Shown here: positions 6,325 through 16,229 of the stretch, one piece after another
Numbering within the stretch: position 1 is the first letter of the stretch
Layout of the letters: each line of letters opens with the position of its first letter
Virus record (IMG/VR): IMGVR_UViG_3300047551_000523
Coordinates: 1 to 30,521 of that record
Length of the DNA stretch: 30,521 bases
Origin: a virus
Reading direction: 5' to 3' (one strand)
Made by a program: the position numbers and the translations under genes
Notes under the pieces: model-generated
Database searches by the model: none
What the model was told of the DNA's origin: nothing
Seen by the model: only the letters and a program-made list of their open reading frames with translations

Positions 6325-6333
6325 GGATTGCTA

Positions 6334-8115
6334 ATGCGTCTTTTGTTTGACATTGAAACCAACGGTCTACCACGCAAAGGACTCACCCATATCCATTGCG
6401 TTGTTATCAAAGATCTGGACACGGGACAGGTGTTTCGATACAACGACACTGGATCGGCTGAGTCAGTAACCACGGGAATCACTGTTCTTGAGTGTGCCAC
6501 AGAGTTGATTGGTCACAACATTGTTGGGTTTGACATTCCAGTTATTCAAGATCTCTATCCATTCTTTCAGCCAAGGGGAAAGATTTATGATACGTTGATA
6601 CTGAGTCGGATGTTCTTTCCAGACATCCTTTCCCGTGATTTTCGCAAGAAGCCCATTGGAATGCCAAGTAAGCTGTTTGGTAGGCATTCTTTGGAATCTT
6701 GGGGTTACCGACTTGGCAATTACAAAGGAGAGTTCAGCAAGACAACTGATTGGTCGGAGTGGTCCAAAGAAATGGAAGACTACTGCGAACAGGATGTACA
6801 TGTTTGCATGGATTTGTTTCAGCTGTTCTCGGATAAGCTGAACACTTGCAAAGATTCCATTCAATTGGAGCATGATCTTGCTGCTATCATGGCAAAGCAA
6901 GAAACATCTGGATGGCCCTTTGATGTTAAAAAGGCACAACAGTTGGAGTCCGTTCTCCGAACAGAAATGGACCAGCTGGCTGATCAGATGAGAGCCACCT
7001 TCCCTTATGTCGATGGTGGACTGATGACACCAAAGCGTCCCAACTCCACACGTGGATACATCAAGGACGCACCGTTTACCAAGCTCAAGGAATTCAATCC
7101 AACTTCTCGTGATCACATTGGCTGGGCCTTCATGACCTGGCGCAATTGGAAACCAGAAGTATTCACCGACACCGGACGACCAAAGATTGATGAAGGAATC
7201 CTACAATCCATCGGCACATCAGAAGCAGAAACTTTTGGACGAATCCTTGAACTTCAAAAGGCTCTTGGTCAGCTCAGTGACGGAGCCAATGCGTGGCTTA
7301 AGATGGTTACCAAGGACGGTCGTATTCATCATACGTGCCAACTTGCCACAAACACAGGCAGGAACGCTCACAGTCATCCAAACCTTGGTCAAACTTCCTC
7401 TGATCCTAGGTGTCGTGAGTTGTTTGGCCCTGGCAAAGGTATGCGTCAGGTTGGTGCGGATGCTTCTGGACTTGAGTTGCGTATGCTTGGGCATTACCTT
7501 GCTTATTACGATGGAGGTGCTTTTGCGGATGTTGTCGTCAACGGAGACATTCATCAACAGAACGCTGATCGGGTTGGGTGCTCACGCAAGGACGTCAAGA
7601 CCCTGACCTATGCCTTTATCTACGGCGCATCGGATAGGAAGATTGGGGTATCGCTTGATAAATCATTGGATGATCGGAAAGCATCCGACCTTGGTAAGAA
7701 AATCAGGCAAAAGTTTCTTGAGGCTATTCCGGGTCTGGATCAATTACTTGCTGCTGTGGCTAAGCGTAGTGATTCCGATGTTCTGCGTGCTCTTGATGGA
7801 AGGCCTATTCGTCTTCAAGGTAAAAAGCACGCTGCCCTCAACTACCTGCTCCAGTCCGCAGGAGCCATAGTTTGTAAGAGATGGAACGTCATTGCTTATG
7901 AACAGATGGAAAACTTAGGATACAATTGGGGCATTGATTATCAATGGCTTGGTTGGATCCACGATGAAATACAACTAGCAGTTCAACCACACCTTGTCAA
8001 TGACGCAAAGTTTCAACTCGAATGGTCCATTGTCCAAGCAGGAGAGTATTATAACCTCAGGGTTCCCCTCGCCTCGGAAGCAAAAGAAGGTGCCAACTGG
8101 TCGGAGTGTCACTGA
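6334..8115 (+). CDS. DNA polymerase, family A with 3'-5' exonuclease (gp5-like)
   Basis: A 593-residue replicative polymerase. I start it at ATG 6334, preceded by GAGG at about 7-nt spacing, rather than the in-frame TTG at 6328. The exonuclease domain carries Asp6/Glu8 (FDIETNG), Asp67 (GFDIPVI) and a YCEQD Exo III motif (Asp154). The polymerase has motif A GADASGLELRML (Asp376), the O-helix motif RKDVKTLTYAFIYG with Arg418, Lys422, Tyr426 and Tyr430, exactly 100 below T7 numbering (518/522/526/530), and motif C WIHDEIQLAV (Asp544, Glu545). Tyr426 occupies the E. coli Pol I Phe762 position. It is shorter than T7 gp5 (704); whether it uses host thioredoxin cannot be judged by eye. The 3' end overlaps the exonuclease gene. 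Confidence 0.98.
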   Translation: MRLLFDIETNGLPRKGLTHIHCVVIKDLDTGQVFRYNDTGSAESVTTGITVLECATELIGHNIVGFDIPVIQDLYPFFQPRGKIYDTLILSRMFFPDILSRDFRKKPIGMPSKLFGRHSLESWGYRLGNYKGEFSKTTDWSEWSKEMEDYCEQDVHVCMDLFQLFSDKLNTCKDSIQLEHDLAAIMAKQETSGWPFDVKKAQQLESVLRTEMDQLADQMRATFPYVDGGLMTPKRPNSTRGYIKDAPFTKLKEFNPTSRDHIGWAFMTWRNWKPEVFTDTGRPKIDEGILQSIGTSEAETFGRILELQKALGQLSDGANAWLKMVTKDGRIHHTCQLATNTGRNAHSHPNLGQTSSDPRCRELFGPGKGMRQVGADASGLELRMLGHYLAYYDGGAFADVVVNGDIHQQNADRVGCSRKDVKTLTYAFIYGASDRKIGVSLDKSLDDRKASDLGKKIRQKFLEAIPGLDQLLAAVAKRSDSDVLRALDGRPIRLQGKKHAALNYLLQSAGAIVCKRWNVIAYEQMENLGYNWGIDYQWLGWIHDEIQLAVQPHLVNDAKFQLEWSIVQAGEYYNLRVPLASEAKEGANWSECH

Positions 8116-8848
8116 TACCCATCTTCGAGTTGATGCTGACTTCTATGCCTATCGGGCGTGTCAATCAGCAGAAACAGAATTAGATTGGGGAGAGGATCTG
8201 ATCACGATTGCTAGCAACTTTAAGGTTGTATTGGAGATCTTTGAAGGGGAGTTAAATCTCCTCAGAACACGGTTTGATACCAACAATATTACTCTATATT
8301 TCTCCGACACAAAAAACTTTCGAAAGACACTCTCTTCCGAATACAAGGGAAAGCGCACAAAGCGGAAACCCGTTGGATACAAGCGGCTTCTCGATTGGTG
8401 TACTCAGAACTATACCGTCGTCAGAATTCCAAACGTGGAGGCTGATGATGCCCTTGGAATGGACTGCCACCTAGATCCTGAAAACTTTGTGCTTGTCAGT
8501 CCAGACAAGGATATGAAGCAGATCTCCTGCCGCCTCTTTAACGGTGAGGAGGAGATCAATGTGACCCCAGAGGAAGCCGACTACTGGTTCTGGACCCAAT
8601 GCCTGACCGGTGATCCGGTTGATGGCTACAAGGGGGTTCCAGGGGTGGGTGCGGTAGGTGCCAAGAAGATCCTTGACAAGGCCCAGGATCCATGGCAATC
8701 TATCCTTGAGGCCTACGAGAAGGCTGGTCAGACCGAAGAGGAGGCAATCCTCAACGCACGCCTGGCCCGCATCCTCAGGCCCGGGGAGTACAATCAAACT
8801 ACTATGCAACCCATCTTATGGACTCCACCATCTTACTTATCAGCGTAG
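8090..8848 (+). CDS. 5'-3' exonuclease, flap-endonuclease family (gp6-like)
   Basis: About 252 residues. The frame is open further upstream (ATG 7994), but that would overlap the polymerase by 122 nt. I prefer GTG 8090, preceded by GGAAG at about 9 nt, giving a short lead before the first catalytic Asp in LRVDADFYAYR. Other FEN-family landmarks follow: the basic SEYKGKRTKRKPVGYKR, the metal-binding EADDALGM and LVSPDKDMKQI, and a helix-hairpin-helix VPGVGAVGAKKIL that grips DNA. The role is removal of RNA primers and degradation of host DNA for nucleotides. It is a little shorter than T7 gp6 (300). The part after about 8500 is GC-richer (58% in two sampled lines) than the part near 8221 (40%). 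The start is the least certain element. Confidence 0.92.
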   Translation: MPTGRSVTDTHLRVDADFYAYRACQSAETELDWGEDLITIASNFKVVLEIFEGELNLLRTRFDTNNITLYFSDTKNFRKTLSSEYKGKRTKRKPVGYKRLLDWCTQNYTVVRIPNVEADDALGMDCHLDPENFVLVSPDKDMKQISCRLFNGEEEINVTPEEADYWFWTQCLTGDPVDGYKGVPGVGAVGAKKILDKAQDPWQSILEAYEKAGQTEEEAILNARLARILRPGEYNQTTMQPILWTPPSYLSA

Positions 8849-9099
8849 ACCTATGTCTATTGCTGTTCTTTGTTTTTCTTTTAGATAGTAACTTCTATCG
8901 GTATGCCGATCTTTTACTTCAAGGGTTCCCCACGTGGCTTGAATTACAAGTCCGTAAAAGAATTCTTAGAGTCAGACTTTGGCTCGATCGACAAGCACTC
9001 ATCCATCGCGGACCCCTGGGAAGACTCTGGAACGAGTACTGTCTCTGGCGAATCCGCAACAACCCAGCCTACAAAGAGTTCTTCCAAGACCGTGAGTAA
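8818..9099 (+). CDS. Small membrane protein, partly overprinted on the DUF3310 gene
   Basis: A 93-residue ORF starting in the last 31 nt of the exonuclease gene. The N-terminus contains one strongly hydrophobic segment (residues about 4-22, ILLISVDLCLLLFFVFLL), predicted to span the membrane. A basic, Trp/Leu/Arg-rich part follows (VRKRILRVRLWLDRQALIHR) and a conventional ending NPAYKEFFQDRE. It fills the otherwise noncoding 8849-8902 and uses ordinary codons throughout, which supports it. The last 197 nt (8903-9099) are also open in the DUF3310 frame, so either this region encodes two proteins or one start is misplaced. No clear ribosome binding site precedes ATG 8818. No family is recognised; the function is unknown. 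Confidence 0.55.
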   Translation: MDSTILLISVDLCLLLFFVFLLDSNFYRYADLLLQGFPTWLELQVRKRILRVRLWLDRQALIHRGPLGRLWNEYCLWRIRNNPAYKEFFQDRE

Positions 9100-9298
9100 G
9101 TATGATCCTGCCCACTACCAGCGTGGTCGCATCCAAGTTTGGGACTTCATCGTTGATCAACAGCTTGATTTTCTTGCTGGTAATTGTATCAAGTACATTT
9201 GCCGAGCAGGTCACAAAGATCATGAATCCGAACTTGATGACTGGCTCAAGGTAAAGGCATATGTTGATCGCAAAATTAAATCACTCAGCCAACCCTAA
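8903..9298 (+). CDS. DUF3310 domain protein
   Basis: A 131-residue ORF whose C-terminal half is the recognisable domain, with KYDPAHYQRGRIQVWDFIV, then GNCIKYICRAGHKDHESELD and DWLKVKAYVDRKI. The H-Y...KYi.RaG.K...L.DL.K...Y pattern is that of DUF3310, common in phages and also found near T7 gp1.7; a nucleotide-related role is suspected. The N-terminal half (residues 1-64) has an ordered beginning (MPIFYFKGSPRGLNYKSVKE) and a Ser/Thr-rich linker. An alternative GTG at 9092 would give only the domain (68 residues) and would remove the overlap with the upstream membrane-protein ORF; neither start has a convincing Shine-Dalgarno sequence. The stop TAA shares a base with the ATG of the MazG-like gene. 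Confidence 0.85.
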   Translation: MPIFYFKGSPRGLNYKSVKEFLESDFGSIDKHSSIADPWEDSGTSTVSGESATTQPTKSSSKTVSKYDPAHYQRGRIQVWDFIVDQQLDFLAGNCIKYICRAGHKDHESELDDWLKVKAYVDRKIKSLSQP

Positions 9299-9672
9299 TG
9301 CACAACGAATCTTTACTTGATCAAGCTTATTCATTCCGTAAGGCTATGCAACAGCCTTGCTACACGGATGACGATGATGTATTAGATCTTCAGTATCGAC
9401 TGATTCGGGAAGAGTGGCATGAATTCCATCTGGCTTATACGGGTGAAGACATTAGTAATGATGTAGTTGAAACCCTAAAAGAGCTGGCTGATCTTGTCTT
9501 CGTGTGTTATCAGTTTGCTGCTGCCCGGGGCTGGGATCTTGATACAGCTTTGAGGCGAGTGTTTGAAAGTAATATGTCTAAACTTGTTGACGGTGAGCCC
9601 CTCCGTCGTATTGATGGTAAGATCTTAAAGGGGCCCAACTACATTCCTCCTACCCTTGACGACTTAGTATGA
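9298..9672 (+). CDS. MazG-like nucleotide pyrophosphohydrolase
   Basis: A 124-residue all-alpha protein with the metal-binding pattern of the MazG/PRA-PH superfamily: Glu39 and Glu42 in REEWHEFHLAY, then Glu62 and Asp65 in LKELADLVFVCYQFA (ExxE ... ExxD). The following GWDLDTALRRVFESNMSKL and the final DGKILKGPNYIPPTLDDLV are typical of phage MazG-like enzymes. Such enzymes hydrolyse (d)NTPs or related nucleotides to monophosphates. In cyanophages they have been proposed to tune nucleotide pools or (p)ppGpp levels, but the substrate cannot be read from sequence. It sits between the replication genes and ribonucleotide reductase, consistent with nucleotide metabolism, and overlaps the RNR alpha start by 4 nt (ATGA). 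Confidence 0.85.
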   Translation: MHNESLLDQAYSFRKAMQQPCYTDDDDVLDLQYRLIREEWHEFHLAYTGEDISNDVVETLKELADLVFVCYQFAAARGWDLDTALRRVFESNMSKLVDGEPLRRIDGKILKGPNYIPPTLDDLV

Positions 9673-11126
9673 CAACCTTTGCTGACCTCGGTGACACCCC
9701 CAACACCATTGCTCGCACCGGACGTGTGCAGAACTGGATCGACAATCCGGAATCACGCCTTCCAGTGTCTTGCACAGTGTTTGTTGTGGAGGACAGTATG
9801 GAAGGACCAGAAGGAATTGAAGCCTCCTGGCGCTTTGTTTCACATGCCCTTCGTAATGGAGCTGGTGTTGCTGTTCACCTTTCCAAGATCCGTCCCAGTG
9901 GTTCTGAAAATGGAAGGGGTCTGACAGCTTCCGGTCCCGTATCCTTTGCTCGCATTTACTCTGCTCTTAATGAAACACTTCGACGAGGTGGTGTCTATAA
10001 AAACGGAGCTGTTGTATGCCATCTTGATTATACTCATCCCGATGCTCTTGATTTCATTCGTGCCAGTCGTTCAGATCTGGCGTGGGTGAAGCGATGCCTT
10101 AATGTCGATCAAGCCTTTCTGTTTAATGCCTCACCGGAGCTGATTGAAGCAACCCTTGATGGGATTCGAAAGGGAGATCTTTGGCTGAACAAGATCCGGA
10201 GGGATGACAAAGGCAATCGCATCTATGGAAACGTATGTCTTGAGGTGTATCTGCCTAGCCGTGGTACCTGCCTGTTGCAACACGTGAACCTTGGTGCGTG
10301 TCGATTAGAAGATCTAGTGCCTGCCTTTATCGAAGGTATGACAAGTCTGATTGAGTTGCATGGAAAGACAGGCGTCGGAGAAACTGGTGAGTATCTTGAT
10401 CCAAGTGTTGATCGACAAGTTGGTCTGGGTATTCTTGGATTAGCTAACTTCCTTGCAAACAACAAAGTAACCTACAAAGAGTTTGGACAAGCCCTGGATG
10501 CGTACCTCTCACACCAACCTGAATACACGCCAGCATATCTACTTGTATCAGACCTCGCCAAAGCTATCGACGTTGCAGCCATCATCGCCCGTAAAGCGAA
10601 TATGGTACGTGCGTTTGCGATTGCTCCTACTGCTTCCTGTAGCTACAATAACATTGATCTCAATGGCTACACTACCACCCCCGAGCTGGCTCCTCCTATT
10701 AGCCGGTTCGTTGATCGTGACTCTGGAACTTTTGGGGTTACCTCTTACGAGTATCCTCCATCCGTTGAGATTGCTTCGGAAGTTGGTTGGAAAGATTACA
10801 AGAGGGTAGCTGATGGGATTGTAGCCCTGTTTAGGAATACCCTTTTGTTCCATGGATATTCGTTTAACAGCTGGAGCGATGTAGTTACTTATGATCGGAA
10901 GTTCCTTGAGGATTGGCTGATCTCTCCACAGACTTCCCTCTATTACGCCCTTCAGGTGATGCCTGACACCCAAGCCAAGGATGATGCTCTTGCTGCCCTT
11001 GACAATGATTTCCATGAATATTTTAACTTTGATCTGATTGATACGGCTGAAGAGGTAGACCCTGATTGTGGTTGCCCCAAAGCCAAGCCCCTTGAACCTG
11101 AACCCTGTATTCCCTGCGGAGAATGA
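9669..11126 (+). CDS. nrdA: Ribonucleotide reductase alpha (large) subunit, class I-like
   Basis: A 485-residue catalytic subunit that reduces ribonucleotides to deoxyribonucleotides. Key residues by my alignment to E. coli NrdA: Cys35 in LPVSCTVF (Cys225), the active-site trio Asn188-Cys190-Glu192 in GNVCLEV (437/439/441), and Cys201 in GTCLLQHVNLG (Cys462). Radical-transfer residues are Tyr425-Tyr426 in TSLYYAL (730/731). C-terminal relay cysteines lie in DCGCP and CIPCGE. AIAPTASCSYNN is the phosphate-binding loop. At 485 residues against 761 it lacks the N-terminal ATP-cone that gives feedback control of activity. The Tyr pair and the adjacent beta gene argue for class I; similar cyanopodovirus enzymes were long annotated as B12-dependent class II. 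ATGA overlaps with the genes on both sides imply coupled translation. Confidence 0.93.
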   Translation: MTTFADLGDTPNTIARTGRVQNWIDNPESRLPVSCTVFVVEDSMEGPEGIEASWRFVSHALRNGAGVAVHLSKIRPSGSENGRGLTASGPVSFARIYSALNETLRRGGVYKNGAVVCHLDYTHPDALDFIRASRSDLAWVKRCLNVDQAFLFNASPELIEATLDGIRKGDLWLNKIRRDDKGNRIYGNVCLEVYLPSRGTCLLQHVNLGACRLEDLVPAFIEGMTSLIELHGKTGVGETGEYLDPSVDRQVGLGILGLANFLANNKVTYKEFGQALDAYLSHQPEYTPAYLLVSDLAKAIDVAAIIARKANMVRAFAIAPTASCSYNNIDLNGYTTTPELAPPISRFVDRDSGTFGVTSYEYPPSVEIASEVGWKDYKRVADGIVALFRNTLLFHGYSFNSWSDVVTYDRKFLEDWLISPQTSLYYALQVMPDTQAKDDALAALDNDFHEYFNFDLIDTAEEVDPDCGCPKAKPLEPEPCIPCGE

Positions 11127-15177: not shown

Positions 15178-15209
15178 AAAGCTGATCAACCTTCTCTTTC
15201 CTTAAAACC

Positions 15210-16229
15210 GTGACTGCAACTGTAACTTATCTGGGCGAAGCTAATAAAGCTGGCGGCCAGTCTCCTACCTACGCTCAGCGTACCAATCTCTTCCTGAAGC
15301 TGTTTACTGGTGAGGTCTATGAGGCCTTCCGTAACTCTACCATTGCTAAGGGTCTGGTGATGAACCGTACCCTCCGTGGTGGTAAGGAAGCTCAATTCAT
15401 CCACACCGGTCGTATTCAGTCTGGGTATCACACCCCCGGCACCGCGATCCTTGGTTCCGGCAACCCTCCGGCTGCTGAGACCACCATCGCAATGGACGAC
15501 CTGCTCATCGCCTCTGCGTTCGTGAGCAACCTGGATGAGATCATGTCTCAGTATGACATTCGTGGTCCCATCGCTCGTCAGATCGGTCAAAGCCTGGCTG
15601 AATTCTATGATCGCCGTATCTTCCGCGTTCTGGATCGTGCCTCTGGCCTGACCGCTGCTGTGACCGGTGAGCCCGGTGGTTTCCGCATCAACCTCGGTGC
15701 CAACAAGGAGTATGATGCCCAGGCCCTGGTGGATGGTTTCTTTGAAGCCGCTGCCCGTCTGGACGAAGTGGCTGCTCCTAAGGATGGTCGTGTGGCCGTG
15801 CTGTCTCCTCGTCAGTACTATGCCCTGATCAGCCAGGTGGACACCAACATCCTGAACCGTGAATACGGCAACACTCAGGGTAACCTGAACAGCGGCGAGG
15901 GTCTCTATGAGATCGCTGGCATCCGCATCTACAAGTCGAACAACATCCCCTTCCTTGGGAAGTACGGTTCGGCTGCTGGTGCTTCGATCGACGCTGCTGC
16001 TGTGACCGGTGAGAACAACAACTACGGCATCGCTACCGACTTTACCAATGCCTGCGGCCTGATCTTCCATCGGGATGCTGCCGGTGTTGTGGAGGCGATC
16101 GGTCCCTCCGTTCAGACCACCGGTGCCGACACCAAGGTCATCTACCAGGGTGATGTGATCGTTGGCCGTCTGGCCTACGGCGCTGGCCCTGTGCGGGTGT
16201 CTGTTGCTGGTGCTTTCCGCAACGTCTGA
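15210..16229 (+). CDS. Major capsid protein (gp10A-like)
   Basis: A 339-residue HK97-fold capsid protein, close to T7 gp10A (345). Start is GTG 15210: the frame has a stop at 15183 and no ATG between. The N-terminus, with YLGEANKAGGQSPTYAQRTN followed by LFLKLFTGEVYEAFRNSTIA, and IAMDDLLIASAFVSNLDEIM, DIRGPIARQIGQSLAEFYDR and VAVLSPRQYYALISQV are typical of T7-like capsids. Codon choice is strikingly different from the neighbours: CTG, GGT/GGC, ATC, CGT and GAC predominate, and sampled lines are 58-60% GC against 42% in the scaffold gene. This is the pattern expected for the most highly expressed gene. No frameshift signal for a longer 10B-like form was seen at the end. A hairpin terminator follows. 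Confidence 0.97.
   Translation: MTATVTYLGEANKAGGQSPTYAQRTNLFLKLFTGEVYEAFRNSTIAKGLVMNRTLRGGKEAQFIHTGRIQSGYHTPGTAILGSGNPPAAETTIAMDDLLIASAFVSNLDEIMSQYDIRGPIARQIGQSLAEFYDRRIFRVLDRASGLTAAVTGEPGGFRINLGANKEYDAQALVDGFFEAAARLDEVAAPKDGRVAVLSPRQYYALISQVDTNILNREYGNTQGNLNSGEGLYEIAGIRIYKSNNIPFLGKYGSAAGASIDAAAVTGENNNYGIATDFTNACGLIFHRDAAGVVEAIGPSVQTTGADTKVIYQGDVIVGRLAYGAGPVRVSVAGAFRNV

Follow-up and report, generated by a model that had tools for sequence, protein, structure and literature searches.

Overlap of a small membrane-protein gene with a probable N-terminal extension of DUF3310 in cyanopodovirus-like phages

The DNA analyzed here, IMG/VR virus record IMGVR_UViG_3300047551_000523 (30,521 nucleotides, hereafter the window), is a T7-like, cyanopodovirus-type fragment in which 197 nt could be read in two frames: as part of a gene for a small transmembrane (TM) protein, and as the first half of a longer frame ending in a DUF3310 domain. 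The question is whether both readings are translated, and where DUF3310 starts. An earlier note, made from the sequence alone, had placed the two ORFs (93 and 131 aa, overlapping by 197 nt) where we also find them, the second in frame +1 to the first, and had proposed that either a new gene has been overprinted on an existing one, or DUF3310 starts at GTG 9092. These alternatives turn out not to be exclusive: overprinting stands, as selection is detected in both frames, and GTG 9092 appears to be a genuine, conserved start. The whole model put forward here, which we regard as likely, comprises a dual-coding overlap, an upstream extension of DUF3310 over the TM gene and two nested DUF3310 isoforms.

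The locus and its two products

Genes around the overlap are arranged in the order DNA polymerase, 5'-3' exonuclease, TM ORF, DUF3310, MazG-like protein and ribonucleotide reductase (Table 1). Among cultured phages, this region is most similar to Synechococcus phages such as P60, S-CBP42 and S-CBP3, with which it shares about 70% DNA identity in short stretches. The 131-aa ORF matches the PF11753 profile with 43.1 bits, against a Pfam gathering score of 24; the domain lies wholly downstream of the overlap. Its match in PHROG, family 236, bears the name "nucleotide kinase", a PDB search found no solved relative, and its location in a nucleotide-metabolism operon suggests a putative role there.

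The 93-aa TM protein has no match in Pfam or PHROG, none in bacterial and archaeal genomes, and none at E <= 1 in a tblastn search of known phages. Viral structure searches returned matches only at E >= 3, and for this reason no assignment as holin, spanin or other function was made. The single transmembrane segment and basic tail read from the sequence in the earlier note agree with the AlphaFold2 model, an ordered protein (pLDDT 83) with one N-terminal helix followed by further helical segments. Residues G68, I79, N82, P83, Y85 and F89 are invariant in an alignment of 43 members. In a six-sequence search, the TM profile matched proteins from the metagenomic relative L043 (E 5e-6) and from S-CBP2 (S-CBP2_0024, E 6e-5), weakly S-CBP42_0054, and P60 gp19 not significantly.

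Table 1. Features at and around the overlap (positions in the window)
Feature	Position	Strand	Remarks
DNA polymerase	6328-8115		
5'-3' exonuclease ORF	7994-8848	+	last 31 nt overlap the TM start, likewise in frame +1
TM gene	8818-9099	+	93-aa membrane protein; N-terminal TM helix at residues 3-22; helical Arg-rich tail; apparently the older frame
Long DUF3310 ORF	8903-9298	+	131 aa, in frame +1 relative to TM; ATG 8903 is the candidate start of the long isoform
Putative overprinted N-terminal extension of DUF3310	8903-9091	+	the 63 residues ahead of the internal GTG; rich in S/T/D/E; disorder predicted
Dual-coding overlap	8903-9099	+	197 nt; covered by selection, open-frame and codon tests
Conserved motif NYKSVKEF (relatives HYKSIKEFLESD)	8945-8968	+	extension residues 15-22; predicted short helix
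Short DUF3310 ORF	9092-9298	+	GTG 9092, ~68 aa; start overlaps the TM stop (GTGAGTAA)
DUF3310 domain (PF11753)	9104-9268	+	residues 68-122 of the long ORF
MazG-like pyrophosphohydrolase	9298-9672	+	start/stop-coupled to DUF3310 (TAATG)
Ribonucleotide reductase	9669-11126		named by gene order in related phages

Coding in the second frame

Neither product looks like noise, as had been noted from the sequence: IMG/VR holds relatives of the TM ORF in 34 contigs and of the DUF3310 ORF in 53, many of the latter matched through the N-terminal half. Out of 122 loci found in IMG/VR, 80 were kept, each with a TM alignment. With duplicates removed, 72 relatives with distinct TM genes (49 + 23) were analyzed. 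Of these 72, 67 keep the +1 frame open throughout the overlap, with stops in L021-L023 and within the extension of L152, while the other four alternative frames are open in 4, 3, 0 and 6; coding of the overlap in antisense was discarded, antisense frames being open in just 0-6 of 72. In the first set, 45 of 49 relatives have the +1 frame open, yet 3.2% of control windows reach a fraction of at least 0.9, and under synonymous resampling of codons for a given TM protein the +1 frame of single sequences stays open with probability 0.13-0.49. Open-frame statistics alone were therefore judged too weak, and codon tests were applied.

Codons in the two frames had been described as ordinary, which does not hold. 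TM-frame codon usage within the overlap correlates with that of neighboring genes at only r = 0.19, as opposed to 0.70 +/- 0.12 (minimum 0.40) in null windows; the DUF3310 frame gives r = -0.13, like an unused +1 frame. Such a distortion is itself a signature of dual coding. It has a sharp internal boundary: third positions of TM codons 13-28 are as predicted from neighboring genes, while from about codon 31 to codon 93 they are A/C-rich and T-poor, the observed/expected ratio of A+C being 1.00 at codons 13-20, 1.13 at 25-32, 1.57 at 31-38 and 1.75 at 79-86. For codons 43-93 as a whole, A+C reaches 1.58 of expectation (null maximum 1.33) and T falls to 0.46 (null minimum 0.61). TM codons 1-8, which overlap the exonuclease gene in the same frame relation, served as a positive control and give an A+C ratio of 1.71. 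Since the third position of a TM codon is the second position of a DUF3310-frame codon, A or C at these sites results in hydrophilic residues in the DUF3310 frame.

Arginine codons tell the same story. Within the overlap, CGA and AGA make up 299 of 399 arginine codons of the first set (75%) and 143 of 212 of another, independent set (67%), compared with 527 of 3050 (17%) in flanking genes; columns with a majority of these codons are 13 of 20 in the overlap and 3 of 81 among controls (Fisher 4e-9). In the TM frame, these codons yield D or E in the DUF3310 frame. The columns that are mostly CGT, namely 86, 90 and 92, are those that form GTG starts, most other arginine columns being CGA/AGA. The composition bias is present in all lineages, A to G; the arginine bias is absent from outgroups without the extension, whose TM-like genes use CGA or AGA in 1 of 17 arginine codons.

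Synonymous divergence was compared with a null made of 60-codon windows of pol, exo, mazG and nrd, using pairs with 0.2-0.3 backbone divergence. TM codons 29-88 show 0.392 synonymous codon differences against 0.513 +/- 0.036 (p = 0.003), decreasing to 0.310 in codons 59-88, while codons 11-28 are normal (0.566). The reduction is found in divergent pairs (p = 0.003-0.04) and not in close ones (<0.06 divergence, p = 0.81). The ratio of both-synonymous to single-synonymous rates (SS/SN) is not significant (p = 0.07-0.17). NS/SN and NN/SN are raised in the overlap; they were not taken as proof, because NS/SN is high in codons 11-28 too and the effect is in part attributable to relaxed evolution of a small TM protein.

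Selection is thus not confined to one frame: the TM protein is under purifying selection (NN/SN 0.3-0.9) and has a conserved tail, and the DUF3310 frame is marked by the arginine bias, the third-position switch and the synonymous reduction. By these comparative criteria, the 197-nt overlap is almost certainly dual-coding, with both frames selected.

Start sites of DUF3310 and competing readings

Of 62 relatives that could be anchored, 61 have a GTG or ATG no more than 12 codons from the DUF3310 domain, and neither codon occurs 13-29 codons upstream of it; six further sequences were mis-anchored by the search pattern, and among them L001, L002, L003 and L066 do have the GTG. The DUF3310 proteins of P60, S-CBP2, S-CBP42, Syn5 and SS120-1 begin in the region of GTG 9092. 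The short start is missing in L151, though its frame is open. From this conservation, use of GTG 9092 appears very likely.

For the long form, most lineages feature an in-frame ATG at TM codons 25-29, and the boundary of the second-frame signal, at TM codons ~29-31, coincides with ATG 8903. In L009 and L084 a GTG is found at codon 33, directly after an in-frame stop. Use of a long internal start is reasonably to quite likely; which codon serves can only be inferred, because the position of the ATG shifts among relatives and L002 has none at the expected place. No Shine-Dalgarno sequence is evident upstream of either DUF3310 start in the window. We infer that both isoforms are made.

The reading in which DUF3310 is translated from GTG 9092 alone, and the upstream half of its ORF is a chance by-product of the TM gene, accounts for the strong conservation of the short start, for its agreement with the start region of cultured relatives, for the stops in L021-L023, and for an HNH insertion that parts DUF3310 from the extension in L074 and L127. 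We nonetheless consider it improbable, given that the arginine bias, third-position switch and lower synonymous divergence are confined to a region of the length of the extension, and that 67 of 72 relatives keep this frame open, compared with 0-6 for the others. A fortuitous first half, as the earlier note had allowed, is contradicted by codon evidence for most of the clade and seems to apply to L021-L023. The converse, that only the long form is made and GTG 9092 is an ordinary internal valine, fits a long frame that is open and selected, as well as the open frame of L151. It is improbable to a similar degree: GTG and ATG interchange at this site, cultured relatives start there, arginine is mostly CGT exactly where the GTG forms and CGA/AGA elsewhere, and the 17 codons just upstream of the short start contain neither ATG nor GTG.

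Two other mechanisms could generate a second-frame signal without a long-form start codon or without a second protein. A +1 ribosomal frameshift in the TM gene, around codons 25-31, would produce a TM-DUF3310 fusion that tethers DUF3310 to the membrane, with the extension as linker; the signal does begin in the middle of the TM gene and the precise long ATG is not conserved, but inspection by eye noticed no conserved slippery site at the frame boundary, an ATG or GTG is found there in nearly every lineage, and the GTG of L009 and L084 comes immediately after an in-frame stop, making this mechanism very unlikely. Least credible of all is that the constraint on TM synonymous sites reflects an RNA or codon-usage effect, such as a structure or a ribosome-binding region. 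The strongest conservation is indeed near the DUF3310 start, at codons 82-89. However, predicted folding is not unusual (z = -1.23), no Rfam match was found, C rises while T falls, contrary to what an open structure would demand, the bias spans more than 60 codons, and arginine codons are shifted towards D/E in the second frame. Two nested DUF3310 starts, the upstream one within a dual-coding region, remain the preferred reading.

Origin, variants and comparison with known systems

The head of the long DUF3310 is predicted by AlphaFold2 to be disordered (pLDDT < 50 at residues 1-14 and 23-64), except for a conserved motif, Y-x-S-I-K-x-F-L-E-S-D, predicted as a short helix amid the disordered stretch. 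The motif would suit a binding motif, and the head probably gives the DUF3310 protein a tail for binding or regulation. A bolder idea, that the head binds the basic TM-protein tail encoded by the very same bases, the two forming a hard-wired pair that would hold DUF3310 at the membrane, or that a long form made as a TM-DUF3310 frameshift fusion does likewise, seems doubtful. The N-terminus of an S-TIP28 protein (YTAIPKYLSE) resembles the motif and was set aside, because it lies over another small ORF.

The extension is absent from P60, S-CBP2, S-CBP42, SS120-1 and Syn5, while a TM-like gene, of weak homology, is present in S-CBP2 and in L043. According to the review PMC8227390, a newer frame with distorted codon usage is a recurrent feature of such overlaps, and so is disorder in the proteins they encode. 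The extension-less DUF3310 of cultured phages, the codon usage of the extension, resembling that of an unused frame, and its disordered head as opposed to an ordered TM protein all point to the TM gene as the older of the two. Instead of a separate new gene, as first suggested, the part that appears to have been overprinted on an older TM gene is a new N-terminus of DUF3310.

In the proposed history, an ancestral operon would have had the order exo - TM - DUF3310 - mazG - nrd, with a GTG or ATG start of DUF3310 near or overlapping the TM stop. In one cyanopodovirus-like clade, the DUF3310 frame would then have been extended upstream, in frame +1, over the pre-existing TM gene, and the long form opened by an in-frame start inside it, an ATG at codons 25-29 (ATG 8903 here) or, in some relatives, a GTG. 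Three products are predicted: the TM protein, a short DUF3310 whose start at GTG 9092 is coupled to termination of TM translation, and a long DUF3310 headed by 63 mostly disordered residues.

The DUF3310 proteins of cyanopodoviruses (P60 gp21, S-CBP42_0055, S-CBP2_0025, Syn5 gp31) resemble that of the window in their domain, in their place between exonuclease and MazG/ribonucleotide reductase, and in a start region before the domain. They begin right at the domain, whereas the clade of the window has about 63 more residues, encoded over the TM gene. Similarly, S-CBP2_0024, S-CBP42_0054, P60 gp19 and the L043 protein are, like the TM protein, small, with an N-terminal TM segment, and lie between the exonuclease and DUF3310; unlike it, they lack overprinting along the gene, and their overlap with DUF3310 amounts to 20 nt in S-CBP2 and to none in S-CBP42 and for P60 gp19.

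Overprinted genes are known in phages, such as K and E of phiX174 and Rz/Rz1 of lambda, and tailed phages are believed to carry more long out-of-frame overlaps than their annotations show. What the present overlap has in common with the phiX174 and lambda cases is that an older gene also encodes a second protein in a different frame, that the spread is restricted and that the newer product is disordered; it differs in that the new frame lengthens an existing gene at the N-terminal end instead of standing alone. Nested in-frame isoforms are likewise familiar, from T7 gp4A/4B and the dual start of lambda S: there, as here, two in-frame starts would yield a long and a short form, but in the window the long head is out-of-frame coding over another gene, and its isoforms are predicted. 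The overlap thus belongs to a known class, of which it is a new, well-documented case, an existing gene having grown an N-terminus over its neighbor, and no new kind of system; no description of it was found in the literature. Its documentation includes many relatives, a sharp boundary, the exonuclease overlap as control, outgroups without the extension, one lineage of loss and lineages split by an HNH insertion. It would exemplify a gene that gains a new disordered N-terminus by reading over its neighbor while retaining the old start. The case also bears on annotation: automatic gene callers may miss the TM gene or else the genuine short start of DUF3310.

Variants of the locus provide a natural series for testing the origin and loss of such extensions. 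L021-L023, with stops in the extension frame and an intact TM gene and short ATG start, seem to be a lineage that lost the extension: L021 and L022 differ by 10.5 TM-synonymous and 3.5 nonsynonymous changes, against 142 and 209 in other sister pairs (p = 0.018, one pair). Deletions disrupt the TM gene and spare DUF3310 in L025, L026 and L028. In L074 and L127, the extension frame runs into an HNH ORF, leaving DUF3310 with the short form only.

The latter two relatives represent separate lineages, in which an HNH-like ORF (CPRCK...ANCHQIHTHESNHYA; L074:5180-5600, L127:3200-3700) sits between the TM stop and DUF3310, in frame with the extension and with no obvious start of its own. DUF3310 retains a piece of the extension, MTNNVYDRDQ, ahead of the domain in L025:3223-3570 and L028:2256-2807. 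A clearly different DUF3310 domain (KIEPWDFIESQELDFFLGN) follows the same TM gene and extension in L062:3954-4373, and also in L065 and L067, as if recombined at the junction. In L080:1193-1684, a small deletion puts TM and DUF3310 in one continuous frame, either a natural fusion or an assembly error.

Two further overlaps were observed in the window. The 31-nt one between exonuclease and TM gene (8818-8848) shows up in the codon-composition test across relatives. On the minus strand, an open antisense ORF of 294 codons (15186-16070) runs across a sense ORF of 339 codons (15210-16229), probably as an effect of codon bias.
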